Source: Vulcanimicrobiota bacterium (GTDB lineage Bacteria; Vulcanimicrobiota; Vulcanimicrobiia; Vulcanimicrobiales; Vulcanimicrobiaceae). Taken from it: a stretch of 64,000 bases of DNA. The notes beneath the pieces were generated by a model, which saw only the letters and a list, made by a program, of their open reading frames with translations, was not told the origin of the DNA and searched no databases. Numbering within the stretch: position 1 is the first letter of the stretch; every line of letters begins with the position of its first letter. Positions 16,519 to 33,789 of this stretch are shown one piece after another. Made by a program: the position numbers and the translations under genes. The stretch covers positions 186,001-250,000 of the forward strand of contig DAIDGX010000024.1 of NCBI GenBank assembly GCA_027452165.1, written 5' to 3'.

Positions 16519-17760
16519 TCAGCGAACCTTCCCGAAGACGATCACGCTATTGTGGCCGCCGAAACCGAACGAGTTGCTAAACGCCACCTTCACCTCGGCC
16601 TTGCGTGCCACGTTCGGCACGTAGTCGAGCGTGCAATCGGGATCGGGGAATTCGTAGTTGATTGTCGGCGGCATGATATCGTCATGCACCGTCATCACCG
16701 TTGCAACGCCCTCCAGGCCGCCGGCCGCACCGAGCGCATGCCCGTGCATCGATTTCGTCGAGCTCACCGCAAGTTTCGGATGCTCTCCGAAGACCTTTTG
16801 AATCGCTTGTGATTCGGCGGTATCACCGAGCGGGGTCGAGGTGCCGTGCGCATTGATGTACGACACATCCGCCGGCGTCACGTCCGCCGACGCAAGCGCG
16901 CGCCGGAGAGCAAGCATGACGCCGTTACCTTCAGGATCGGGCGCGACGATGTTGTATGCGTCGGCAGACTGACCGAAACCGAGTACCTCGCAGTAGATTT
17001 TCGCACCGCGAGCCGTGGCATGCTCGTATTCCTCGAACACGAGCACGCCCGCACCCTCGGCGAGCAAAAAGCCATCGCGCTGGGAATCGAACGGGCGCGA
17101 CGCGTGCGCCGGGTCGTCGTTGCGCGTGGTCATTGCCTTCATGGAACAAAAGCCGCCCACGGCCATCGGCGTGATCACCGCTTCCGAACCGCCGGCGATC
17201 ATCGCGATCGCTTCGCCGCTTGCGATGCGGTTGTATGCCGTTGCAAGCGCATCGTTCGCCGAAGCGCACGCGCTCGCAACCGAAAATGCGGGGCCGCGGA
17301 ATCCGTAGGTCATCGACACGTGCGCCGTCGCCGCGTTCGCCATGAGCATCGGGATAAAGAACGGCGAGGTTTTGCTCCAGGTGCCGCTCTGAATGGCCTT
17401 CTCCGATTCGAACCAGAACGTTTGAATGCCACCGATGCCGGTGCCGATCAGCACGCCTATGCGGTCCTTGAACGCTTGGTCGTCGGGCAGCTTCGCGTCC
17501 TCGATCGCTTCACGCGACGCGACGAACGCAAGTTGCGAGAAACGGTCCATGCGGCGCGCCTCTTTGCGCCCGATCAGCGCATCGGCGTCGAAGTCCTTCA
17601 CCTCGGCCGCAATGCGCGTTGTAAACTTGCTCGCATCGAACACGGTGATGGGGCCCGCGCCGGACTCGCCGGCCACCAAACGGCGCCAGAACTCGGGGGC
17701 GGTATTACCAAGGGGCGTCACGGCGCCGAGGCCCGTGACGACTACACGTCGCTTATCCAA
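16519..17760 (-). CDS. fabF: Beta-ketoacyl-ACP synthase II
   Basis: A 413-aa thiolase-fold condensing enzyme of fatty acid elongation. The nucleophile Cys is in FSVASACASANDALATA, and the two catalytic His are in YINAHGTSTPLGDTAE and KSMHGHALGAAGGLEG. The C-terminus SNSFGFGGHNSVIVF is typical. It begins with TTG at 17758-17760 (MDKRRVVVTGLGAVTPLG); no ATG or GTG is available in frame nearby. acpP, which often separates rnc and fabF, is absent. The preceding intergenic region is short and shared with the divergent gene at 17888. Confidence 0.96.
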   Translation of the reverse strand: MDKRRVVVTGLGAVTPLGNTAPEFWRRLVAGESGAGPITVFDASKFTTRIAAEVKDFDADALIGRKEARRMDRFSQLAFVASREAIEDAKLPDDQAFKDRIGVLIGTGIGGIQTFWFESEKAIQSGTWSKTSPFFIPMLMANAATAHVSMTYGFRGPAFSVASACASANDALATAYNRIASGEAIAMIAGGSEAVITPMAVGGFCSMKAMTTRNDDPAHASRPFDSQRDGFLLAEGAGVLVFEEYEHATARGAKIYCEVLGFGQSADAYNIVAPDPEGNGVMLALRRALASADVTPADVSYINAHGTSTPLGDTAESQAIQKVFGEHPKLAVSSTKSMHGHALGAAGGLEGVATVMTVHDDIMPPTINYEFPDPDCTLDYVPNVARKAEVKVAFSNSFGFGGHNSVIVFGKVR

Positions 17761-17887
17761 AACAGTCGCATGTTACGGCGCCCGACGCTTGGCGCCTTCC
17801 GGCATCACCTGGAGGCCCCCAGGGAACTTTGCAGCGCAGCCGTTCGTTGCCTAGCATACCAACTGCACCCTTATGAGGACGTCGTTT

Positions 17888-18406
17888 ATGACCAAACGGA
17901 GTGCCATCGCCGCTGCCCTGCTCGCCCTGCTCATGCCGATTGCGGCGATGGCGAGCCAGCGGATCCCTCCCGCGCCGACCTTTCCGGCTCCCGGAACCAT
18001 CACGAGCAACCCCGGGACCGGCAACCAAAACCTCGCGCCCTACCAAGGCGATACCCAAGGCTCGCTCAGTAGCCAGAACTGGTTTGCAGTCTCGAACTGG
18101 TACGCCTACTGCGGCAAGCACAGCAGCGCGAACGACGACCATGCGCCCAATGCGGTGACGGGCGCCGACGCGAACTGCCTGACCCTGCCGCCCGGCCTTC
18201 GCGGCCTGACCTCGTTTCGCGGCACCGTCGTGGGCGTCCGCGGCGACTACGTGGCGATCCGCCAAGGCACAGGCTCGCAGCTGTACGACGTAACCCAGGC
18301 CCGAAGCCACGGCACCGTACCGCACCGGCTCTATGCCTCTCGTAAGGTGACCGTGTACGGGCATCGCGATGACTCCGGCCGCTTCCACGTCGTCGCCATC
18401 AGATAG
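17888..18406 (+). CDS. Secreted protein of unknown function
   Basis: A 172-aa protein with ATG at 17888, preceded by GAGGA at 8-base spacing. An upstream in-frame start at 17873 would place the signal peptide further in. MTKRSAIAAALLALLMPIAA is a signal peptide with cleavage near AMA-SQ. The mature part has a Pro/Gly/Asn-rich 50-residue stretch, two Cys in a NWYAYCGKHSS and DANCLTLPPG context, then a small beta-rich segment SFRGTVVGVRGDYVAIRQG that reads like an OB-fold nucleic acid- or ligand-binding strand set. I do not recognise a named family. Probably periplasmic. Confidence 0.6.
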   Translation: MTKRSAIAAALLALLMPIAAMASQRIPPAPTFPAPGTITSNPGTGNQNLAPYQGDTQGSLSSQNWFAVSNWYAYCGKHSSANDDHAPNAVTGADANCLTLPPGLRGLTSFRGTVVGVRGDYVAIRQGTGSQLYDVTQARSHGTVPHRLYASRKVTVYGHRDDSGRFHVVAIR

Positions 18407-18441
18407 CGCGGGCGACGCAAATGGTACAATGGGGGTCACGT

Positions 18442-18804
18442 ATGAAGCCGTTCGTCGTGGCCCTCTTTCTTTTCGCCGCAACGCTGGCCGCGGCGGCCCC
18501 GACGCTTGCCGATCAGACGTTTTGGACGCTCACGGCTAAGCCGTCGCTCGCCCCCGCGCCCTCGCCCTGGCCGGTGACGATCAACGCGGAGTATTTGACG
18601 TACGCATGCCGCTACCGGGGGCGGCATACCTCGTGCTTCTGCGAACGTCCGGTGGCCTACGGCGTGCAGCCCCGCTGCTACGTTGGGCAACCGCCGCGTC
18701 CGCCCTATCCGCCCCCGCCCTCGCGCATCGTGCACCCGCAACGGCCACCGGTCGCGCCGCTGCCGCCCGTGCGGACCGCACCGCCGGTTCCAACCCATAC
18801 CTAA
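18442..18804 (+). CDS. Small secreted proline-rich protein
   Basis: A 120-aa protein starting at ATG 18442 ([20 protein letters not shown]), a signal peptide. The mature N-terminal region has four Cys in a short span ([18 protein letters not shown] and QPRCYVG), likely two disulfides. From about residue 78 the protein is a Pro-rich tail. A TACAAT hexamer lies 11 bases before the ATG, a possible -10 element with no clear -35. No known family was recognised. Confidence 0.5.
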
Positions 18805-18845
18805 CCCACCTCGGCCGGTGGAATCACCCCGTCGCATAAGGGTCC

Positions 18846-18874
18846 TTGCACGGGGTGCGGGGCTTTGCTATACT
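18846..18874 (+). promoter_or_regulatory. Sigma70-type promoter of rpmA (leaderless or nearly so)
   Basis: TTGCAC (18846-18851), a 17-base spacer, then TATACT (18869-18874). The rpmA ATG is at 18884, so the expected transcription start falls within about 3 bases of the start codon. No Shine-Dalgarno sequence fits in between. Confidence 0.75.
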
Positions 18875-18883
18875 CACCCGGCT

Positions 18884-19168
18884 ATGTTCCAGTTTGACCT
18901 GCAACTGTTCGCGTCCAAGAAGGGCGCCGGTTCGACCCGCAACGGTCGCGATTCGAACGCCCAGCGCCTCGGCGTGAAGCGCTTCGGTGGCGAGCGCGTG
19001 CTCGCGGGCAACATCCTCGTGCGCCAGCGCGGCACCAAGTTCTATCCGGGCGAGAACGTCGGCATCGGTAAAGATCACACGCTCTTCGCGCTCGTCGAAG
19101 GCACGGTCGAATTCTCCGAGCGCCGGAACAAGAAGCACGTCAACGTGCGCCCGGCCGCCGCTGCGTAG
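18884..19168 (+). CDS. rpmA: Ribosomal protein L27 with cleavable-type N-terminal extension
   Basis: A 94-aa protein. After a 10-residue extension [10 protein letters not shown] comes [20 protein letters not shown], the conserved L27 body whose N-terminal tail reaches the peptidyl transferase centre. The extension matches the Firmicutes form, in which L27 is cut after ...FFA by the cysteine protease Prp before assembly. rplU and prp, the usual neighbours upstream, are not adjacent; two unrelated secreted-protein genes are. An intrinsic terminator follows. Confidence 0.95.
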
Positions 19169-19193
19169 TCGCAGCGCGAACGACATTCGGACG

Positions 19194-19226
19194 GGGGGCC
19201 GCTCACGCGGCCCTCTTCCTTTTCTT
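19194..19226 (+). terminator. Intrinsic terminator after rpmA
   Basis: A 9-bp stem, arms 19194-19202 and 19207-19215 with loop TCAC and one G-T pair, followed by a T-rich tract (TTCCTTTTCTT). It lies between the rpmA stop and obg, so obg probably has its own promoter or depends on read-through. Confidence 0.75.
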
Positions 19227-19270
19227 GCCGAAGGTTCCCGGTCGGCATTCCCGCAACTACATCGAGTCAC

Positions 19271-20536
19271 GTGAAATTCATCGACGAAGCGACGATCACC
19301 GTCGCGGCAGGCGACGGCGGCAACGGCATCGTTGCATGGCGACGCGAGAAGTACATCCCGAAGGGCGGCCCTGCGGGCGGTGACGGCGGTCACGGCGGCG
19401 GCGTCTATCTCGAAGCGACGCCCGAGCTTTCGACGCTCGTCGAGTTTCGCTACAAGCGACAGTTTCACGCCGAAGCCGGCAAGGCCGGCGGGCAATCGAA
19501 CAAGTCTGGGCGCAGCGGCGACGACCTGACGATCCCCGTCCCGGTCGGCACGATCGTCTATCGCACGTTCGAGGGTAAAACCGAGCAGTTTCTCACCGAT
19601 CTTGCACAACCCGGCGATCGCGTGCTCGTCGCCAAAGGCGGCAAAGGCGGCCTCGGCAATCAGCATTTTGCCACGAGCACGCGCCAGGCGCCGCGGATCG
19701 CCTACAACGGCGAGCCGGGGGAGAAGTGCGGCGTCCGCTTGGAGTTGCGCCTGCTCGCCGATTGCGGTGTGATCGGGGTTCCGAACGCCGGCAAATCGAC
19801 GTTACTCTCGGTCGTCTCGGCGGCCCGCCCAAAGATCGCGGATTATCCGTTCACCACGATCGAGCCGCAGCTCGGCGTCGTGCGCGTGGGCGACGATGAA
19901 TCGTTCGTGATGGTCGATGTGCCCGGCTTGATCGAAGGCGCGCACGAAGGCGCGGGGCTGGGCGATCAGTTTCTGAAACACGTCGAGCGCACGCGCGCGC
20001 TCGTGCATCTGCTCGACGGCGCGAAATCACTCGATGAGATGCTGCACGACAAAACGACGATCGAACGCGAACTTGGTGCGTGGAACCCGAAGCTGCTCGA
20101 TAAGCCTACGCTCGTGGTCGTGAGCAAACTCGATCTTCCCGACGCGCAAGCGCGCTTGGCCGAACTTCGCGAACGCTTTCCCGACGCACGCGGCATCAGC
20201 TCTGCGACGCGGGAAGGCGTGCAAGACCTCGTGTATGCCGTGTGGCAAACGATCAAGGACGCGCCGCTCCCCGAAGTCGTCACGCCACCGCCCGCGCTCA
20301 TCGAGCTCGTGCCGCACGATGCGTTTACGATCTCGCGCGAACCCGACGGTACGTTTGTCATCGCCGGCGAACGCGTAGAGCGGCTCGTTGCGCTCACCAA
20401 TTTCGACTCCGACGAAGCGCTCGCGCGCTTCGAACGAACGCTCGCCAAGATGGGCGTGGAAAAGAAGCTACGCGAACTCGGTGCGGTCGATGGTGACACC
20501 GTGCGCATCGGCCACTACGAGTTCACCTATTCATGA
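19271..20536 (+). CDS. obg: Obg-family GTPase
   Basis: A 421-aa ribosome-assembly GTPase. The glycine-rich Obg fold (about 1-158, e.g. GDGGHGGGVYLEA and KGGKGGLGN) is followed by a G domain with G1 GVPNAGKSTLL, G2/switch PFTTIEPQLGVV, G3 DVPGL and G4 VSKLD. A C-terminal OCT domain lies at about 345-421. It takes part in 50S maturation and the stringent response. The start is GTG at 19271. The stop overlaps nadD by 4 bases. Confidence 0.96.
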   Translation: MKFIDEATITVAAGDGGNGIVAWRREKYIPKGGPAGGDGGHGGGVYLEATPELSTLVEFRYKRQFHAEAGKAGGQSNKSGRSGDDLTIPVPVGTIVYRTFEGKTEQFLTDLAQPGDRVLVAKGGKGGLGNQHFATSTRQAPRIAYNGEPGEKCGVRLELRLLADCGVIGVPNAGKSTLLSVVSAARPKIADYPFTTIEPQLGVVRVGDDESFVMVDVPGLIEGAHEGAGLGDQFLKHVERTRALVHLLDGAKSLDEMLHDKTTIERELGAWNPKLLDKPTLVVVSKLDLPDAQARLAELRERFPDARGISSATREGVQDLVYAVWQTIKDAPLPEVVTPPPALIELVPHDAFTISREPDGTFVIAGERVERLVALTNFDSDEALARFERTLAKMGVEKKLRELGAVDGDTVRIGHYEFTYS

Positions 20537-23473: not shown

Positions 23474-25345
23474 GTGATCGACCGCCGCCGCCTGCCGCGC
23501 GCATCGTGGCAAAGGTCCCCATGGCGCATCGGCGCGTTCATCGCCGTGCTCGCTCTTGCGCTCGTGGCGCTCGTATGGCGGCTGGTTCAAGTACAAATCG
23601 TCAACGGCGCGGAGTACCGCGCGGCCGCGCAGGCTAACCAAGTGCGCGTGATCAAGGTGGCCGCACCGCGCGGCCTGATCGTCGATCGCTACGGCCATAC
23701 GATGGTGCGCAGTCGCCCGTCGTTCGTGGTGGCGCTGATTCCCTCCGAGGTTACCGACATCTCGAGCGAATTGCACACGCTCGCACAAACCCTCGATATA
23801 CCCTTCGCGTCACTCGATCATCACCTGCTGCATCATCGGGGCGTGAACTACCGCAACTTCGCCGAGGTGCAGACGTACGAGCCGTACGGGCCCGTGGTTC
23901 TCGCGCGCGATATTCCCGTCGCAAGCATTGCGCGAATCTCCGAGTTGATGAACGATCTTCCCGGCGTCGATCTCGAAGTGCAGCCGATTCGCGACTATCC
24001 GGGTGGCCCGATCGGCGCGTCGGTCTTCGGCTACGTCGGACAGATCACCGAGAACGAATACCAGCGCCTCAAGCACGAAGGCTACACGCCGAACGACGTG
24101 GTGGGCAAAGACGGCCTCGAGTACGTCTACGATCGCTATCTCCGCGGCGTGCCCGGCGGACAGCGCGTCGTCGTCGATGCAACCGGCGCCGTCGTGCCGG
24201 GCGTCAAGTTGCCCTCACGCCAGCCGATTCCGGGTGACACGCTCGTGACGAACATCGACTGGCATCTCGAGAAGATCGCGCAACTGGCGCTCCGCAACGG
24301 GATCGCACGATGGGCACACGGACGCAAGCTCGCGGGCGCCGTCGTGATCGAGGATCCGTGGAACGGCGCGATTTTGGCGATGGCAAGCGAGCCCGAGTTC
24401 GACCCCAATGCCTTCGCGAGCGATGATTACAAGCGCGTCGCAAAATATCTACTCGATCCCGCCGATCCGCTCTTCAACAACGCGATCGGCGCAGCGACGC
24501 CGACCGGTTCGACGTTCAAAATGGTGACCGGTACCGCCGCGATTACCGAAGGCGTGATCCGCCCGAATCAAGTGATCTACGACAGCGGCGAATGGGACTG
24601 CGGTGGCTACATCGCGCGCGATATTGTCTCCGGAGGGCTCGGGTACACGACCTTCGTTCCGGCGCTCGCCGCGTCATCGGACGGGTATTTCTATCAACTC
24701 TCGTGGCGGCTCGGGCGCAAGCGTTTGACGAAGTGGGCGCACCTTTTCGGTCTGGCGAAACGGTCCGGCATCGATCTTCCCGGTGAAAACCCGGGCAACT
24801 GGCCGACGCCCGCGTGGGAGCTTAAAACCTTCGGCGTGCCGATGGAGCCGAGCGAGGTATGCATGCTCGGCATCGGCCAAGGCGCCATGCAAGCCACACC
24901 ACTGCAGATCGACAACGTTGCATCGGCGGTCATCAACGGCGGCACGCTCTATCGCCCGGAGATCGCGCGAGAGATCGTCGCGCCGGACGGTCACGTGGTC
25001 AAAACCTTTCCACCGCACGTGATCCGTCAGATTCCAGGTACGCCGGCCGCGTTCGCCGCCGTGCGCGCAGGCATGGCCAAAGTCACCGATGCCGGCGGCA
25101 CGGCCTATGGCTTGCAGATCAAGGGCCTACCCTTCTCGGGCAAGACCGGTACCGCCGAGACCGGTATTAACGGATCGGGCGCCAACACGACGTGGTTCGT
25201 CGCGTGGGCACCGACGAATCATCCGAAGATTGCGATCGCCGTGTTCGTCGGACGTAGCGGCGGCTACGGCGCGAACGTGGCCGCGCCGATCGCTCGCGAC
25301 ATCATGGTGAAATACTTCAAGAAGAGCCCCGCGTACATTCAGTAA
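23474..25345 (+). CDS. mrdA: Penicillin-binding protein 2 (elongasome transpeptidase)
   Basis: A 623-aa class B PBP, GTG start at 23474, 2 bases after mreD. A single membrane anchor (about 18-38) precedes the pedestal domain with RGLIVDRYGHTMVRSRPSF. The transpeptidase domain has active-site Ser in TPTGSTFKMVTG (SxxK), the SxN-type AASSDGYFYQLSW, and KTG in FSGKTGTAETG. It cross-links peptidoglycan along the cell cylinder. rodA, the cognate glycosyltransferase gene, does not follow; the cluster ends in a convergent overlap with the next minus-strand gene. Confidence 0.95.
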   Translation: MIDRRRLPRASWQRSPWRIGAFIAVLALALVALVWRLVQVQIVNGAEYRAAAQANQVRVIKVAAPRGLIVDRYGHTMVRSRPSFVVALIPSEVTDISSELHTLAQTLDIPFASLDHHLLHHRGVNYRNFAEVQTYEPYGPVVLARDIPVASIARISELMNDLPGVDLEVQPIRDYPGGPIGASVFGYVGQITENEYQRLKHEGYTPNDVVGKDGLEYVYDRYLRGVPGGQRVVVDATGAVVPGVKLPSRQPIPGDTLVTNIDWHLEKIAQLALRNGIARWAHGRKLAGAVVIEDPWNGAILAMASEPEFDPNAFASDDYKRVAKYLLDPADPLFNNAIGAATPTGSTFKMVTGTAAITEGVIRPNQVIYDSGEWDCGGYIARDIVSGGLGYTTFVPALAASSDGYFYQLSWRLGRKRLTKWAHLFGLAKRSGIDLPGENPGNWPTPAWELKTFGVPMEPSEVCMLGIGQGAMQATPLQIDNVASAVINGGTLYRPEIAREIVAPDGHVVKTFPPHVIRQIPGTPAAFAAVRAGMAKVTDAGGTAYGLQIKGLPFSGKTGTAETGINGSGANTTWFVAWAPTNHPKIAIAVFVGRSGGYGANVAAPIARDIMVKYFKKSPAYIQ

Positions 25346-25632
25346 CCGCGGCTGCGAATCACCACGATCGCAGCGGCGGCGGCCTCGCGCAACTCCGCGT
25401 CGGGATCCCTTACGCATAACGTCTCGAGTTCGGCAATGCACCACGCGGCGCCGACGATCGCCAAACGCTCCACGTAATCCAAGCGCACCTCGAGCGGCAC
25501 ATCTGACACGCCTGGTATCGTCGCAGGTACTCGGCGCTGCCATCGTACGAGGAGCGTTCCCAGCGCAAAGAAGAGCGTGCCGACGCCGAAGACCCCGAGA
25601 AAAACGAGTGCGGCGGGGTTATTCGACAGCAA
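25339..25632 (-). CDS. Small membrane-anchored HEAT-like protein (module copy 2)
   Basis: A 97-aa protein if started at TTG 25632. An ATG 39 bases further upstream is possible but would lie inside the preceding gene and add a charged leader. The N-terminal AALVFLGVFGVGTLFFALGT is one membrane helix. The remaining 60 residues are helical, ending DPDAELREAAAAAIVVIRS, which reads as a single HEAT-like repeat. It resembles the 131-aa protein at 28901-29296 in layout (membrane helix, then DP-x-x-x-AAA helix pair) and occupies the same place after a DUF11 protein. It overlaps that gene's stop by 14 bases. Function is unknown. Confidence 0.6.
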   Translation of the reverse strand: MLSNNPAALVFLGVFGVGTLFFALGTLLVRWQRRVPATIPGVSDVPLEVRLDYVERLAIVGAAWCIAELETLCVRDPDAELREAAAAAIVVIRSRGY

Positions 25633-28600
25633 GATGCGCGGCGCCGCGCAACGCATCGAGCACGTGCGCAAGCGCTTCGTCGAGCGCGCGGTTCACGCTC
25701 GAGGTCAAGACGCGGTGGAACTCTTCCATCGGCAGCTCGTTCAGCACCGAGAAGATGTTGAGCAACTCCGCGCGATAGGTTTCGAGTTCATCGGAGCGGT
25801 GCCCATCGTGGTAGATCGTGGTGCCGAGCAGTTGCGCGTTCACGAGCCACGGTGCGACCGTACCGATCGGAGCGCTTTCCAGATCGGCGACGAGCGCCCG
25901 CACGACGTCGAGTTCGACGCCGCCGACGATCCGCACCACCTGGGCTGGCGGCGGTTCGGGCGACGCGGAAGGCGCAAAGGCCAGCTCATCGACGAGCGTG
26001 CGCAGAGCGTCGCGCCCTTCACGATCTTCGATATCCTTCCCGGTGATCGTGAGGCGCGGCATGCGCAGGCGTACGAAGAGCTTTTCGAGCGGAACGCGTA
26101 GTTGGCGCGTCGCCGTGGCAAAGGTCGCCGCAAGTTGCGCTGGAGCGCCGATCGCATGCTCCGGAAAAAGCATGCGCATCGCAAAAAGATGCTGCACCAA
26201 GCCCCCCGCGCTGTCGCTGCGCTCCAACATGCGAATGGTGTTGGCTAAACGTTCCGCCGTAAAATCGACGTAGAGTAACGGCGTCGAGATCTCGGCATGG
26301 GCTGTAGCTCCGGCGGCGGGCAGCTCGGGTTGCGCGGCCACGATTTCCGCGATCGCGCGCGGTGGCTCGGGCATTTGGGATGATGCCGGCGCTTCGAGCG
26401 ACACCTGTTCGGCGATCGGTTCGTCGAGGACCTCGCCTTGGGCCGCAGCCGGGAACAACCGGGCGATCGAGATCGGCGTTCCGGCCGCCGATTCGCTCAA
26501 ACTTGGCTCCGATTGCACGCGCACGGTCGGCGCGGCAACGGCGTGCGTGATGCCATCAGCCCACTCGAGCACCGCACGCGTATCCAGCGGCGTGCCTGCG
26601 GCGAGCGGCGCCATCACGATCATCTCCCAGCGCAGGCGTAATTCGACACCGGGATTCACGTCGGCGAGCGCAAGCCCGCGTGCCGACCATGCCTGCGACG
26701 TTCCCGCATCGTCGTTCACGTTCATCCCGTTCAACGTCGTGGACGACGGCACGTACACCGCGAGATTCGTCGGCACCACGCGTACGGTCAGACGATCGGC
26801 CGGGCCGTCGCCGTCGTTACGCATCCGCAGTTCGTAAAATAGGCGCTCGCCCGCGTTCACCGCGTCGGATGGGCTCGCGAAGAGCTGCGTGCTCTGGGCA
26901 AACTGCGCCTGCGCAAACGTTGGCACGCCGAGCGTGGCAAACTGCACCGGCGTGATACCGCGACCGTGCAGCCATCCGTCAAGCTGCAGCGTTCGCGCGC
27001 CACTCGTTCCCGCGAGCAAGCGCAACGTAATGCGCGCTTCGTGCGTGCTCTCCGCCGGTATCTCCGGCAAACCGAGGCCGTCGCGTTCGCGACGCGCGTC
27101 AACCGTACGTTCGATCGCAAGGTCGGGCGGAAGCGAAAGCGCCAGGTGGCCGTCGCGAAGCACGTCGCTACCCGAGTTGTGTACGCGTACGATCACATCG
27201 ACGGTACGATGCGGACGTAGCGGCTCGGTTGTTGCGAGTTCCCATGCGACGCTTTCGATATACGGGCGCGAGCGCACGACTATGGTCGAAGTGCCGAGAT
27301 CGATGGCGCCTTCGGCGCGTTCGAGCATCGCCGCGAGCGTCGCGTTCGAACGATCGGCAACGCGCGAGACGACGCGCGCGTGGACGGTAAAGATGCGTTC
27401 TTGATGCGGCTGCACCACGCCGAGTGCGATCGGTTCGCCGTATGCAAAGAGCTCGTCGCCCTCCCCGACGCGCACGTCGGTGAGTTGCAGCCCCGGTGCG
27501 ATGCGCAGCTTGACGTCCGACTCGGGTGCGGTGCCGTCGTTATACACGTGTATCGCGAAGGTCAACTCCTCGCGTGCGTGCGCCACGCCGCGGTCAGCTT
27601 CGACAAAATTGCGCGCGCGGCTAAAGCGCGGCGCGACCCGCACCGTGAGGCGCCGCGAGAACGAACGCTCCCCGGTCTTCCAGCGCAGCACAGCATCGAC
27701 GGGTAACGCGTTTTGCCCCGGTTCGGGCACCGCGACCGTCGCGGCGATCCCCACTTCCACCATGCGTCCCGCAGCAAGCGCGCCGAGCGTGAACGTGAGG
27801 CCCTCGATTGCGTCGTCGCCGACCGGCTGTCCATCGACGTGCGCGGAGCCCGGCGCGTAGATGAGCCCGTGCGGCAGCGTGAACGTTACCTGTACGCGCT
27901 CGGCGATTCCGGTGCCCACGTTGAGCGCGCGCACCACCATCGGCACGCGCATGCCGGGCGTCACCACCTCGTCGCATTGAAGGACGAACGCGGTCTCTTC
28001 GCCGGTAAAATCGACTGGGGACTGCACGACGATCTCGTCCGAAGCGATCTCGAATTCGCTGGTTTCGCGCGAGCCGACGCTTCCGCGCACGCATATACGC
28101 GTGCCATCCACGAGCGGAGAATCGATCGTTGCCTGGTACTCGACGAGCACCGACTGTCCGGGCGCGAGCCGTTCGCTCACAACCGCCGTGCGATCGTAAT
28201 CGAAAGCCTCGCCGTCAATGCCGGCGACAACGCGGCCGTCGATGCGCGCGCTGTGCGCGATGTAGGTGGTGTGTTCGGGAACGGGCAGCATCACGACCAC
28301 GTCGTGCGCGCTTGAGGATCCCGTGTTGCGCACCGTTGCACGCGCGGTCACCGCGTCGCCTGGCTTTGGTTGCGGCGGCGCGGTCAACGTCACGAGCGTC
28401 GCAGCATTGCGCAGCTCGGGGCGGCTGCGTACCGTGACGCGTTCAACGTTCGACGCGGTCAATTGCGTCTGATCGGTCACGAGCGCCGCTTGGAAGAGGA
28501 GTTGCGTCCCGTCCTCGATCGTATCGTTCACGCGAAACGTGCAGGTGATACGGCACGCGCCGTTTGGCTCGAGGTCGGCGACCGGTGCACCATGCGGTTC

Positions 28601-28858
28601 AACAAAAGCGGCGCCGTCGGGCAGCGGCGCGTCATCGACGAGATCGCCGCCGGTAACGTGCTCGACGCCCTGTGGGTGCGCACAGCGCACGCGCACACCG
28701 GTAGCCGCAGCGCCGCCGAGGTTCGAAAACGAGAAGTGCACGCGGATCGTATCGCCCGGCTGCGCGACGCGCGAGGGCTCCACGACGAGCGTGCGCAGCA
28801 CCTCGGGCAAAGCGGCAGAGCCGGGAGCGAACAGACCGGTCAGCGACGGCGAAGACAC
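25619..28858 (-). CDS. Giant DUF11/CARDB-like repeat protein (module copy 2)
   Basis: A 1079-aa protein with about six beta-sandwich repeats of 120-135 residues (1 to about 800). Each has the DUF11-type pattern 'N-x-G-x-x-x-A-x-x-V-x-V...LP-x-G-L-x-Y-x-x-G', e.g. SNLGGAAATGVRVRC, RNTGSSSAHDVVVMLPVP, LNVGTGIAERVQVTFTLPHG, RNDGDGPADRLTVRVVP. A Pro/Ala/Glu-rich linker (about 820-890) leads to a helical C-terminal domain starting YVDFTAERLANTIRMLERS and LVQHLFAMRMLFPE. No signal peptide or membrane helix is seen, which is odd because DUF11 proteins are usually extracellular. It is clearly paralogous to the 1070-aa protein at 29305. Function is unknown. Confidence 0.75.
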   Translation of the reverse strand: MSSPSLTGLFAPGSAALPEVLRTLVVEPSRVAQPGDTIRVHFSFSNLGGAAATGVRVRCAHPQGVEHVTGGDLVDDAPLPDGAAFVEPHGAPVADLEPNGACRITCTFRVNDTIEDGTQLLFQAALVTDQTQLTASNVERVTVRSRPELRNAATLVTLTAPPQPKPGDAVTARATVRNTGSSSAHDVVVMLPVPEHTTYIAHSARIDGRVVAGIDGEAFDYDRTAVVSERLAPGQSVLVEYQATIDSPLVDGTRICVRGSVGSRETSEFEIASDEIVVQSPVDFTGEETAFVLQCDEVVTPGMRVPMVVRALNVGTGIAERVQVTFTLPHGLIYAPGSAHVDGQPVGDDAIEGLTFTLGALAAGRMVEVGIAATVAVPEPGQNALPVDAVLRWKTGERSFSRRLTVRVAPRFSRARNFVEADRGVAHAREELTFAIHVYNDGTAPESDVKLRIAPGLQLTDVRVGEGDELFAYGEPIALGVVQPHQERIFTVHARVVSRVADRSNATLAAMLERAEGAIDLGTSTIVVRSRPYIESVAWELATTEPLRPHRTVDVIVRVHNSGSDVLRDGHLALSLPPDLAIERTVDARRERDGLGLPEIPAESTHEARITLRLLAGTSGARTLQLDGWLHGRGITPVQFATLGVPTFAQAQFAQSTQLFASPSDAVNAGERLFYELRMRNDGDGPADRLTVRVVPTNLAVYVPSSTTLNGMNVNDDAGTSQAWSARGLALADVNPGVELRLRWEMIVMAPLAAGTPLDTRAVLEWADGITHAVAAPTVRVQSEPSLSESAAGTPISIARLFPAAAQGEVLDEPIAEQVSLEAPASSQMPEPPRAIAEIVAAQPELPAAGATAHAEISTPLLYVDFTAERLANTIRMLERSDSAGGLVQHLFAMRMLFPEHAIGAPAQLAATFATATRQLRVPLEKLFVRLRMPRLTITGKDIEDREGRDALRTLVDELAFAPSASPEPPPAQVVRIVGGVELDVVRALVADLESAPIGTVAPWLVNAQLLGTTIYHDGHRSDELETYRAELLNIFSVLNELPMEEFHRVLTSSVNRALDEALAHVLDALRGAAHLAVE

Positions 28859-28900
28859 GAGCCTTCCTTTCCCTCTACACGGCGATGCAACCTCGGGCGC

Positions 28901-29296
28901 TCAGTCGAGCAGCGCGAGGATCTGCGCGATGCGGTCGGCGCGCGGGCCGGGGCGATCCGCGAGAAAGGCCTCGACGGACGCGCGGCGGCCGCTCGCCGCA
29001 AGGGCATGCGCAGCGGCAAGACAGACCGGCTCGGCAGGATCGCACAGCGCGTGTTCCAGCAGGTGCCGCGAACGCTCGTCGTCGAGTTTGGCCACGGCGA
29101 AGACGAGATCGCATCGCTGCGACTCCGAAAGCCCGGCGAACTCCTCGCCCGCCTCGCTCGCCCATGCAGCGCTCGGCGCAGGCGTCATCGCGGCTCGCTG
29201 CCCGTGAGCCGGCTCGGCGCGACGCGGTGCTAGGCGCGCGAACGCCCACAGTGCGACCCCGAGTACCAAGACTGCCAGGACAAAGATAGTGAACAT
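28901..29296 (-). CDS. Membrane-anchored HEAT-like protein (module copy 1)
   Basis: A 131-aa protein starting MFTIFVLAVLVLGVALWAFA, a single N-terminal membrane helix with a positively charged cytoplasmic flank (RLAPRRAEP). After an Ala-rich linker, residues 55-131 are helical with CDLVFAVAKLDDERSRHLLE and DPAEPVCLAAAHALAASGRR, like two HEAT/armadillo-type repeats. It lies 8 bases after the 1070-aa DUF11 gene and 42 bases before the next DUF11 gene, so it is the second member of a repeated two-gene module. Partner and function are unknown. Confidence 0.7.
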   Translation of the reverse strand: MFTIFVLAVLVLGVALWAFARLAPRRAEPAHGQRAAMTPAPSAAWASEAGEEFAGLSESQRCDLVFAVAKLDDERSRHLLEHALCDPAEPVCLAAAHALAASGRRASVEAFLADRPGPRADRIAQILALLD

Positions 29297-29304
29297 AGCG
29301 TTCG

Positions 29305-32300
29305 CTACCGGCTCGCGAGCAGCGACGTGCGCACCACGTCGAGCGCGGCATCGAGCCCTGGGTCACGCCGCCGTTGCAACTCGTCGAGGAACTCGGCCGC
29401 CTCCGTGTCGATCAGCCCATCGAGCTTCGCCACGAGCAGCCCACGATAATTCGCGAACTGCGGGCTCGCATCGGGTAGCAACCGCGCCATGATCGCCCAC
29501 GGAAGTGCCGTCGCCAGCTCGCACTCGCCCAAGCGATCGGTACGTTCGGCGAGTTCGCGCGCGTCGAAGCTGCCCCGCAGCGTGCACGCCGCACCCGGCA
29601 TCTCTGCCGGCGTTCCACGGACGCCGCTGACGTCGTGCAACAGACGTTCGAGCGTGGCGCGTAGCGATGGCGTCTCCACATCTCGCGGCGCGATCACCCG
29701 ATCGGGCACTTGGAGCTTGATGAAGAGCCGATCGGTTTCGTCCCGCAGCGCCTCGCGCATCGACGCCGTGGCACCAAGGTGCGTATCGCCGATCGCTTCG
29801 GGAAAGAAGGCGCGAATCGCAAACAGGTGCGTGACGAGCCCATCGAAACGCGCCTCGTCTAAGAAGCGTAACATGCGCGCGTAACGTTCGTGCGTGAAGC
29901 TGACCGATACGCCCACGTGCGACGCCGCGAGCACACCGTCGATCACGTCATCGACGAGCGCCGGCACGTCGGCCGAAGGCGACCACACGCGCGCCCCATC
30001 GGCGCCTCCGTTGACCGGCGTCGCGGGCGGCAACTCGACGAAGCGATCCTCGGTGAGCGCTTTGACGCCGCCGAACGACGGGCCAAGCATCCCGTCCAGG
30101 CCAAACGGAAGGCCGGGTATCGCATTTGCGAAGGCGGGTGTGGCGCGCACGTCGATCTCGTTGGAACGCACCTCGTCAACACGATCGCCGTCGTATGCCA
30201 CCTGAACCACACGAACGATCGTTGTGCCCGCGCCAAGATCGTTGTGGACGACGTCGCGCCAGCGAATCGTCGCTTCGACGCCGGGATCGACATCGTTGAG
30301 AACGATACCGCGATCGCTCGCAAGCGCCGTACGCGCTCCGACATCCCGAATCGGCACGTCGTTGACGGTGGTCGAGTTCGGCACGTAGATCAACGCATCT
30401 GGTTGCTCGCAGCGCAGATGCACGCGGCGCGCGGGGCCATCGCCGCCGTTACGCACGTGCAGTGTCCACTCGATCGCCTCGCCTGCATCGACCACGTCGC
30501 CGGGAACGCCGCGCAGCGTGCCCACGGTAAAATCGGGCTCCGCCGTCGTCGCGATCGTCAGACGCGTGAGCGGTACCGGCACCATCGCATCGGCGGTGAG
30601 CACACCGTCGAGCGTCACCGGATACTCTTTTGCCAGGCTTCGCAGCAGACGCAATCCCAAGCGCGCTTCGACGCTCGCGCCCGGCGCGATCTCGCCGAAG
30701 ACGAGCTTGGATTTCTCGCGCGTTGCGCCATCGACCATCTCCAAGCGCGCCTCCGGCGAGACGTAGAGCCGTACGCGCACGTTGTGCGCGGTATCGCTGC
30801 CCACGTTTGTCAGTCGCACGGTGACGTCGGCGAGTTGGTTGGGGCGTAACACCTCGTTGCTCTCGAGGTGGAGCCCCGAACTCGCGGGCGAGAAGGCCGG
30901 ATGCGAATCGACGCGCCACGTCACGTCGCCAAGCGGCGTCTCACCGAGCTCGCGCGAGTGCAGGCTCGCTCCGGCTCGCAGTTCGCTGCGATCGGGATAT
31001 GGTGCGCGCACGCGCGCGCGCAGAAGAAACCGGCGCTGCGCGTAAGCCTCGATGCTCCCAAGTTCGGCCGTGTCGCCGTCGAGGGTGACGCGCGCATTCC
31101 GTTCGTACAGGCGCACCTCTTCGAGCGCCGGATCGAGGCGCAGGTGGAGCACGAGGTCGGTGGCGGCGGCGCTACCGTCGTTGGCGAGCGAGATCGCGGC
31201 TTCGAGCTCTTCACCCGGACGCACGGTTTCGCCACCGGCGCGCGTCATCGCGTTGCGCCGCGCCGGTAACGCGGGCTCGGCATGCACCGCGATCGTCCGC
31301 TCGAAGCGCCGGCGCGCCCCCTCGTCGCCCGGCGGGTCCCAGGCGAGGGCGGCCGCAAGCGGCAGGGTCACACCGTCGGCAAGCGGCGTCGCGACCACCG
31401 CCTCGCATCGCAACTCGACGCGTTCGTCGGCATCGATCCGCCCGAGATCGAAGGCGAGTCCTTTCTTCGCTTCGCGCACCGGGCGCCCGTCGATCTGCGA
31501 TGCGCCGCGCACCGGAACCAGGGACTCGGGGAGCTCAAAGGTGGCGTGAACGCTCTCGGCCGCGGCGGTACCGGCATTGAAGGCGTGAAGCGTGATCGTA
31601 ACGCGCTGCCCAGGGCGCACGTCATGCGACGGCTCCGCGGTGAGGGTGGTGCGGTCGTCCGCAAAATCGGGCGTGGCATGCACCACGAGCGAAGCCGGCT
31701 CCAGGTCGAACGCGGGCGTCTCCTGCGAGGCGATGCACGCGCGCGCGACGACAGCGCTGCCGTCCTCGAGCGGTGAATCGATCCGCACGCGATAGACCAG
31801 CGTGACGCTCGCGCTCGCGGCGAGCGACTGCGCCACGATCGGGGCATAGAGGCGATCGAACGGCAAACCGTGCTCGCGTTCGACCTCGCGCCCGTTCACG
31901 CGAGCCGAGTTCGGCACGTAACTCGTGTGCTCCGGAATGGGCGCCACGACCACGACATCGCGCGCGCTCGACTCGCCCGCGTTGTGCAGGCGCACGGTGA
32001 TCACCGCCTCGGCGCCCGGGGCGGGCTCGGAACGCGGTTCGATCGCGATCGTGGTAAGGGCGTTGTGCAGGTGTGGGCGGCTGCGAGCGATGAGCCGGAC
32101 GACGTTCGAGCCGACCGGTGGGAGTTCGAACGAGGCGACGGCGGCTTGCAGCTCGACCGTCGTGCCGTTCTCGATGGCGCCCGCAACGCTGTACGCAATC
32201 TCGATGCGACGCTCTTCGCCGGGAGCCACGTCTCCGATATGGGCGCCGCTGCGCGCGAGCAACGGCGAGTTTCCCGTTTCGTCGTCGAGATCGACGCCGT

Positions 32301-32517
32301 CGAGTTGACCCGTCCCCACCAGATAGACAAGACCGTCGGGAAGATTGAAGCGCACGCGGACGCCCGATGCCGGAGCGCCGCCCTGATTACGAAACGTGAA
32401 CGTGGCGCGCACCGTCATTCCAGGTTCCAACTCGCGGTCGGGCGAAACGACGAGCGTTCGGAGGCCCTCCGGCAGCGTCGGTGCTCCTGGCGCGAATACT
32501 TCCGACAGGGTGCGCAT
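29305..32517 (-). CDS. Giant DUF11/CARDB-like repeat protein (module copy 1)
   Basis: A 1070-aa paralogue of the 1079-aa protein. The N-termini align closely (VFAPGAPTLPEGLRTLVV here against LFAPGSAALPEVLRTLVV). About six DUF11-like beta-sandwich repeats are visible, e.g. FRNQGGAPASGVRVRFNLPD, LHNAGESSARDVVVVAPIPE, FNAGTAAAESVHATFELPE, LTNVGSDTAHNVRVRLYVSP, RNGGDGPARRVHLRCEQPD. The helical C-terminal domain (about 850-1070) has SFTHERYARMLRFLDEARFD and GLVTHLFAIRAFFPE, matching its paralogue. No signal peptide. It is the first gene of the four-gene cluster; a 75-base region separates it from the divergent aminotransferase. Function is unknown. Confidence 0.75.
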   Translation of the reverse strand: MRTLSEVFAPGAPTLPEGLRTLVVSPDRELEPGMTVRATFTFRNQGGAPASGVRVRFNLPDGLVYLVGTGQLDGVDLDDETGNSPLLARSGAHIGDVAPGEERRIEIAYSVAGAIENGTTVELQAAVASFELPPVGSNVVRLIARSRPHLHNALTTIAIEPRSEPAPGAEAVITVRLHNAGESSARDVVVVAPIPEHTSYVPNSARVNGREVEREHGLPFDRLYAPIVAQSLAASASVTLVYRVRIDSPLEDGSAVVARACIASQETPAFDLEPASLVVHATPDFADDRTTLTAEPSHDVRPGQRVTITLHAFNAGTAAAESVHATFELPESLVPVRGASQIDGRPVREAKKGLAFDLGRIDADERVELRCEAVVATPLADGVTLPLAAALAWDPPGDEGARRRFERTIAVHAEPALPARRNAMTRAGGETVRPGEELEAAISLANDGSAAATDLVLHLRLDPALEEVRLYERNARVTLDGDTAELGSIEAYAQRRFLLRARVRAPYPDRSELRAGASLHSRELGETPLGDVTWRVDSHPAFSPASSGLHLESNEVLRPNQLADVTVRLTNVGSDTAHNVRVRLYVSPEARLEMVDGATREKSKLVFGEIAPGASVEARLGLRLLRSLAKEYPVTLDGVLTADAMVPVPLTRLTIATTAEPDFTVGTLRGVPGDVVDAGEAIEWTLHVRNGGDGPARRVHLRCEQPDALIYVPNSTTVNDVPIRDVGARTALASDRGIVLNDVDPGVEATIRWRDVVHNDLGAGTTIVRVVQVAYDGDRVDEVRSNEIDVRATPAFANAIPGLPFGLDGMLGPSFGGVKALTEDRFVELPPATPVNGGADGARVWSPSADVPALVDDVIDGVLAASHVGVSVSFTHERYARMLRFLDEARFDGLVTHLFAIRAFFPEAIGDTHLGATASMREALRDETDRLFIKLQVPDRVIAPRDVETPSLRATLERLLHDVSGVRGTPAEMPGAACTLRGSFDARELAERTDRLGECELATALPWAIMARLLPDASPQFANYRGLLVAKLDGLIDTEAAEFLDELQRRRDPGLDAALDVVRTSLLASR

Positions 32518-32592: not shown

Positions 32593-33789
32593 ATGCTCGC
32601 TGTTCATGAGAATCGCATCGCCGACGCCGTCGGGCGTCTCGGCGCGGAGAATGCTTTCCAGGTCCTCGCTCGCGCGCGCGAGATCGAAGCGACCGGACGC
32701 CGCGTCGTCCACATGGAGATCGGCGAGCCCGATTTCGACACGCCGGAGCACATCAAACGAGCCGCGGTGGAGTCGATGATGGCGCACGACACGCATTACA
32801 CGCCCTCAGCCGGCATCGTGGAGCTTCGCGAGACCATTGCCGAGTACACGTCACGCCATCGCAAGCTCACCACGCCCTACACCGCTGCAAACGTCACCGT
32901 CTCGCCCGGCGCGAAGCCGATCATTTGGAACATCCTCTCGGCGATCTTGAACCCCGGCGACGACTTCATCTACTTCGACCCAGCCTACCCTGCGTACGGC
33001 TCGGCTTCGACGTACCTGCAGGCCAACGTCATTCGCATTCCGTTGCTCGAGTCGCGGAACTGGCGCATGGACCTCGACGAGCTCGCAAGCCGCGTGAGCG
33101 ACAAGACCAAAGCGGTGGTGATCAACTCCCCGCACAATCCTACCGGCGGCGTGCTGCAACGCGAAGATTTAGAGCGGATCGCCGAGCTCGCGCACAAGCA
33201 CGACTTCCTGGTGATCTCCGACGAGATCTACAGCCGCAACTTCTATCTCGAAAGCGACTTCGTCTCGATCGCATCACTACCGGGTATGCAAGAACGCACG
33301 ATCATCGTCGATGGTTTTTCGAAGGCCTATGCGATGACCGGGTGGCGCCTTGGCTATGCCATCATGCCGGAGAAGCTCTGCCAAACCGTGACGCTCTTCA
33401 ACAACAACACCTTCAGTTGCGTCGCGACGTTCGTGCAGAAGGCCGGCATCGCCGCGCTCACCGGCCCCGACGAACCGGTGCGCAAGATGAACGAAATTTT
33501 CCGCGAGCGGCGCGACCGTTTGGTGAGCGGGCTCAACGCGATTCCCGGCATGAGCTGCACGCTCCCCGATGGCGCATTTTACGCCTTTCCCAACGTGCAA
33601 CAGATCACGCACGACGACAAGGCGCTCGCGAGCTTCCTCTTGGAAGAGGGCGGCGTGGCGTGCGGCGGAGGCTCGTCGTTCGGTCCGGCGGGCAAGGGCT
33701 ATCTGCGCTTTAGCTACGCCGCGTCGCTTGACGACATCGATTACGCGCTCGCTCAGATTCGCGAGGTCATCCCGCGCTTCAAGGGATAA
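32593..33789 (+). CDS. Class I/II PLP-dependent aminotransferase (aspartate/aromatic type)
   Basis: A 398-aa fold-type I aminotransferase. ATG 32593 follows ACGAGG by 6 bases; a much longer open frame upstream is antisense to the DUF11 gene and not real. Motifs: VVHMEIGEPDFDTPEHIK near the N-terminus, VTVSPGAKPIIWNIL, INSPHNPTGGVL (Asn for PLP), ISDEIYSRNFY (Asp for pyridine N), and VDGFSKAYAMTGWRLGY with the Schiff-base Lys. The C-terminal Arg in GYLRFSYAASLDDI binds substrate carboxylate. Probably Asp, Ala or aromatic specificity; this cannot be resolved by reading. Confidence 0.88.
   Translation: MLAVHENRIADAVGRLGAENAFQVLARAREIEATGRRVVHMEIGEPDFDTPEHIKRAAVESMMAHDTHYTPSAGIVELRETIAEYTSRHRKLTTPYTAANVTVSPGAKPIIWNILSAILNPGDDFIYFDPAYPAYGSASTYLQANVIRIPLLESRNWRMDLDELASRVSDKTKAVVINSPHNPTGGVLQREDLERIAELAHKHDFLVISDEIYSRNFYLESDFVSIASLPGMQERTIIVDGFSKAYAMTGWRLGYAIMPEKLCQTVTLFNNNTFSCVATFVQKAGIAALTGPDEPVRKMNEIFRERRDRLVSGLNAIPGMSCTLPDGAFYAFPNVQQITHDDKALASFLLEEGGVACGGGSSFGPAGKGYLRFSYAASLDDIDYALAQIREVIPRFKG

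Follow-up and report, generated by a model that had tools for sequence, protein, structure and literature searches.

Two giant DUF11-repeat proteins, A and B, are each encoded beside a small membrane protein, S1 and S2, and comparison across the phylum indicates that giant and small gene form a near-obligate two-gene unit and that B, in gene content, accompanies flagella. The four genes lie within a stretch of 64,000 nucleotides, positions 186001-250000 of contig C24 of a Vulcanimicrobiota genome, referred to here as the window; in our labels its genome is G000, with G for genomes, L for loci, f for families and g for genera. We tentatively favour a reading in which each pair is a membrane-tethered cytoplasmic scaffold unit, derived from a flagellar accessory module, B working with the flagellum and A being independent of flagella.

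Gene order and paralogy of the giants

The module and its flanking genes occupy the following positions of the window:

23474-25345, plus strand: PBP2 (mrdA-type) gene, convergent with the module; it follows mreC and mreD and is kept beside the module in most of family f1
25339-25656, minus strand: S2, about 105 aa, membrane helix and short HEAT-like part; likely ATG start at 25656
25619-28858, minus strand: giant B, 1079 aa, GTG start, paralogue of A with the same architecture
25622-26287, minus strand: C-terminal domain (CTD) of B, residues 858-1079; model with pLDDT 95.2 and pTM 0.91
28901-29296, minus strand: S1, 131 aa, one N-terminal membrane helix followed by HEAT-like helical hairpins, predicted N-out/C-in
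29305-32517, minus strand: giant A, 1070 aa, about six DUF11/Ig-like repeats and CTD, no signal peptide; 50 orthologues in one clade
29308-29922, minus strand: CTD of A, as matched by the CTD profile
32593-33789, plus strand: aspartate-aminotransferase-type gene, divergent from A; conserved neighbour

On the minus strand A is followed after 8 nt by S1 and S1 after 42 nt by B, and S2 overlaps the 3′ end of B. Order, strand, spacing and the sizes of A, S1 and B are as described in the first-pass annotation, which had been made from the sequence alone. The 97 aa that it assigned to S2 are to be corrected: the frame is open back to a TTG at 25671, and the N-terminal MRCAAPR, read from the ATG at 25656, is common to the window and G002, which makes this ATG the most likely start and gives a protein of 105 aa. 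The dN/dS ratios are 0.14-0.23 for A and B and 0.23-0.32 for S1, each against three relatives, and 0.35-0.40 for S2 against the two relatives in which it was found; all four are under purifying selection and are therefore real genes. The window belongs to Eremiobacterota; the closest named relatives are MAGs, one of them labelled Candidatus Eremiobacterota.

A and B align end to end with 34% identity, and DUF11 (PF01345) scores 109.7 bits in A and 86.8 bits in B, both above the Pfam gathering cutoff of 24.6, in agreement with the shared N-terminus and repeat architecture proposed earlier; the C-terminal motif common to both is likewise real and belongs to a conserved domain. When 98 giants were placed in a tree, 50 A proteins and 19 B proteins each grouped in a single, fully supported clade, and the duplication is therefore older than the radiation of the family. 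Hence the module is duplicated, as first read, although a simple duplication within the genus of the window is rejected since A and B are both old clades.

DUF11 proteins are usually extracellular, and the repeats are read as a sign of surface location. A and B have the same Ig-like repeats as the extracellular families (PF01345, TIGR01451), above curated cutoffs, but they differ from them in having neither signal peptide nor surface anchor, in ending in a new CTD and in their near-obligate membrane partner. A hydropathy scan, used in place of a trained predictor, detects no hydrophobic segment right at the N-terminus in any of the 98 giants, which bears out the lack of signal peptides noticed in A and B. 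In the same genome, five consecutive ORFs with hydrophobic leaders, including its other Pfam-detected DUF11 proteins, are found at 6110-17341 of L144 (G000:C6), and by these leaders the run is an ordinary secreted DUF11 array. Despite the reputation of its repeats, the whole family of the giants appears to work inside the cell.

The C-terminal domain and its membrane partner

The CTD comprises about 220 aa, with invariant H33, P42, P77, D85, E87, R92, Y171 and F190 (numbering of the B domain), and the model of the B domain is built of two similar alpha/beta halves. Its profile matches 76 of the 149 genomes of the phylum, all of them within the order of the window. No family match was obtained in Pfam, NCBIfam or PADLOC, nor among PDB sequences. 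In fold searches of the model against the PDB, the best Foldseek E value was 0.34, with none at or below 0.001, and the best VIA hit had a Z of 5.2 and was not convincing; these negatives record an absence of match and are no proof of a new fold. The CTD is thus a confidently modelled domain with neither a sequence family nor a convincing solved relative. The anti-phage defence models of PADLOC matched none of A, S1, B and S2.

S1 and S2 show no similarity in pairwise comparison. However, iterated profiles seeded with either converge on the same set, with 104 ORFs in common, and the two are therefore members of one family, characterized by a single N-terminal helix and a HEAT-like part after it. 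The helix predicted in the first-pass annotation stands; HEAT, in turn, is only suggested, as both proteins score under the Pfam gathering cutoff (19.6 bits against 27.7 for S1 and 16.9 against 23.5 for S2). The modelled part forms three helical hairpins at high pLDDT, which may correspond to those of HEAT/PBS-lyase repeats (PF13646, PF02985), and its best HEAT-like Foldseek matches are not significant. Unlike the HEAT families, S falls below the curated cutoff, is joined to a single membrane helix and is encoded beside a CTD gene. The 20 residues after the helix contain on average 2.9 K/R, against 1.0 in the 10 residues before it, and from this charge bias the HEAT-like part is predicted to be cytoplasmic.

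A TM-HEAT-like gene lies directly 3′ of the CTD gene, on the same strand, in 103 of 121 cases, with a median gap of −2 nt. Among the remaining 18 CTD ORFs, six run to the end of the fetched stretch, and of the 12 left, eight carry the anchor in front of the CTD in a single ORF, as a natural fusion. These eight S1-CTD fusions all come from genus g25, where anchor and CTD make one polypeptide in 10 of 10 genomes. In genus g19 the order is A, S1, a CTD-only gene and S2. B has thus been left without its DUF11 part in both genera, and the CTD remains with the anchor in each, which indicates that CTD plus anchor is the unit always kept; their pairing is close to absolute. With the small gene adjoining the giant in nearly every genome and the CTD in no known family, the proposal of an undescribed paired system holds. 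When a g25 fusion was modelled, both domains were well predicted, but the model, with disordered linkers and a pTM of 0.60, does not show them docked, and the fold search with this model (Foldseek/PDB) gave no convincing relative. A giant at L060 (G031:C254) begins with a membrane helix of its own, after which comes an arginine-rich stretch, in line with the predicted topology; it gives no CTD match and looks as if anchor and rod had been joined.

B, flagella and the neighbourhood of the module

Flagellated status was scored across the phylum by FliG and flagellin, and B was counted in genomes with a readable A locus where its presence can be judged. B occurs in 27 of 27 flagellated genomes, in 18 as a full gene and in nine as the S1-CTD fusion, and an intact B in none of 19 non-flagellated genomes, six of which keep a CTD-only relic; the non-flagellated genus g19 is among those retaining it. 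Counted by genus, B is present in 12 of 12 flagellated and 0 of 7 non-flagellated genera (Fisher p 2e-5, uncorrected for kinship). On the tree of A each trait changes six times, and four of four independent contrasts on supported branches are concordant (sign test p 0.125), four being too few to reach significance. A is present with and without flagella, and its retention in the 19 non-flagellated genomes makes it, as far as gene content tells, an internal control from the same family and the same gene run; since A is kept where B is lost, the loss is specific to B. Nor does the absence of B at loci such as L051 and L097 reflect an assembly gap, because these loci are intact. Exceptions exist: G031 is flagellated and has no giant at this locus, and the flagellated G003, G030 and G099, all three incomplete genomes, give no CTD match. 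The cultured member Vulcanimicrobium alpinum WC8-2 has no flagella and moves by type IV pili (PMC9758169).

The order aminotransferase - A - S1 - B - S2 - PBP2 - mreD - mreC is syntenic and is kept, with or without B - S2, across most of family f1, and in most genomes the neighbours of the giants are PBP2, mreD and mreC, with no flagellar genes. Such constancy, together with an anchor that would place the pair at the inner membrane, could be explained if the pair were the cytoplasmic scaffold of the neighbouring MreC/MreD/PBP2 machinery of cell-wall elongation. This is improbable on several grounds. The module is convergent with PBP2, so that the two are not one operon; in family f2 the single giant with its anchor adjoins the flagellin gene instead; other giant paralogues are far from mre genes, and the tracking of flagella by B would be left unexplained. 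Genus g9 adds a further case: in its flagellated members the space between the aminotransferase and PBP2 genes holds a giant (L081, L085, L087), whereas in the non-flagellated G010 only about 3.3 kb separate mreB from the aminotransferase gene, the length of mreC, mreD and PBP2, leaving no room for a giant, and the A-type pair of this genome is located elsewhere.

Just past the flagellin that adjoins the f2 giant, a protein of about 1080 aa with an N-terminal hydrophobic leader is encoded (L062 8024-11269, L063 and L065). In genus g9, near CRP-like and PriA-like genes, lies a third, rapidly evolving set of giant-anchor pairs (L083, L084, L086, L089, L092, L095), and at L070 4579-10892 (G038:C76) a very divergent giant with its anchor is accompanied in its gene run by GGDEF-like, HD-domain and secretin genes.

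A paralogue in flagellar gene clusters and the proposed role

A flagellar cluster with FlgK, FlgL, FliW, flagellin, glycosyltransferases, FliD and FliS also encodes an ExeA-like AAA ATPase and a protein of about 490 aa, which has an N-terminal SADMRLLELQR motif, one DUF11 repeat, a proline-rich linker, a CTD-like C-terminus and no signal peptide. Pfam confirms FliS, FliD, FliW and AAA_22; the genes that we take to be FlgK, FlgL and glycosyltransferases were named by reading their sequences, and the ATPase is presumably ExeA-like, judging from the AAA_22 match and its N-terminal sequence. Between the CTD of the paralogue and the one in A and B, hhalign finds 197 colinear columns with a probability of 88.6% and an E value of 2.6e-6; most of the 33 flagellar-cluster members outscore the best of 660 shuffled controls in this comparison, and the domains are homologous. 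Strong full-length matches were found in genomes with flagellin or FliG. The genome of the window has its own copy at C9:80459-81946; in L149 the paralogue-ATPase pair covers 17457-18947 and 18947-19894. We suspect that the two make up a flagellar accessory module of the phylum that has so far gone undescribed.

CTD homologues stand inside flagellar clusters in three families, f1, f2 and f11. The f11 cluster (G067, L180 6820-12132) contains FlhA, a sigma factor, a FliK-type protein, a CTD-like protein, an ExeA-like ATPase, a DUF11 giant of 1141 aa, FliS and FliD, and a similar gene set with a FlhB-C-like protein is present in family f5. A leucine-rich N-terminal motif in common was noticed in L180 6820-12132 (NKILLLLKQGKRE, NRLLQLLKRGDR). 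The paralogue adjoins its AAA_22 ATPase as in the ExeA-ExeB and GspA-GspB systems; unlike these, the A/B locus has no ExeA-like ATPase. No TM-HEAT anchor was found in the flagellar-cluster loci with the S1 profile.

Flagellar neighbours of the family beside FliS, FliD and FlhA, and the usual location of DUF11 proteins outside the cell, would also suit export of the giants to the surface or into appendages independently of a Sec signal, for instance via the flagellar type III apparatus. Such export is decidedly improbable: A is kept in 19 genomes that have no flagella, the partner is predicted C-in, the L060 giant continues from its membrane helix into an arginine-rich stretch, and the DUF11 array of the same genome has the hydrophobic leaders that A and B lack. 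Unlikely, too, is a lineage-specific pair that would serve membrane organisation in general or sensing, the link of B to flagella reflecting only the loss of many genes in non-motile lineages. This reading accords with the independence of A from flagella, with the small number of supported contrasts and with the location of some distant copies near PAS/SpoIIE phosphatase, GGDEF or HD-domain genes, but it has to face the specificity of the loss of B and the CTD homologues within the flagellar clusters of three families.

Returning to the membrane-tethered scaffold, we propose a model in which each giant and its small partner would act as one working unit. The giant would lie in the cytoplasm, its roughly six Ig-like DUF11 repeats forming a rod with the new alpha/beta CTD at the end, and the partner would be a single-span membrane protein whose cytoplasmic HEAT-like domain would bind the CTD, tethering the rod to the inner membrane; the rod, reaching along or away from that membrane, would hold other proteins. 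The unit would be a duplicated and relocated derivative of the Eremiobacterota flagellar-cluster module, that is, of the DUF11-CTD protein encoded beside the ExeA-like ATPase. B, as a scaffold, would help to assemble, place or control the flagellum, and A would have a related membrane-organising role for which flagella are not needed. A scaffold at the membrane, already suggested by the first reading, is plausible, and the giant-anchor family may contribute to the building or control of flagella in these bacteria. A wider reading, possible but rather doubtful, is that Eremiobacterota have a cytoplasmic system for building, positioning or regulating the flagellum, in which Ig-like rods with a new CTD fold are served by the ExeA-like AAA ATPase of the flagellar cluster and fixed to the membrane by HEAT-like anchors of their own. 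If the flagellar link is true, a whole phylum would have a flagellar accessory module that model organisms lack. No paper was found linking DUF11 to bacterial flagella or describing these genes, and no family, fold or paper found describes the CTD, the giant-anchor pair or the flagellar DUF11/ExeA-like module; both the family and the pairing are new.

Elsewhere in the window, between 53700 and 63540, the ORFs, identified by reading their sequences only, comprise yidC, rnpA and rpmH on one strand and dnaA, dnaN, recF and gyrB on the other, an arrangement that places a replication origin probably near 56 kb.
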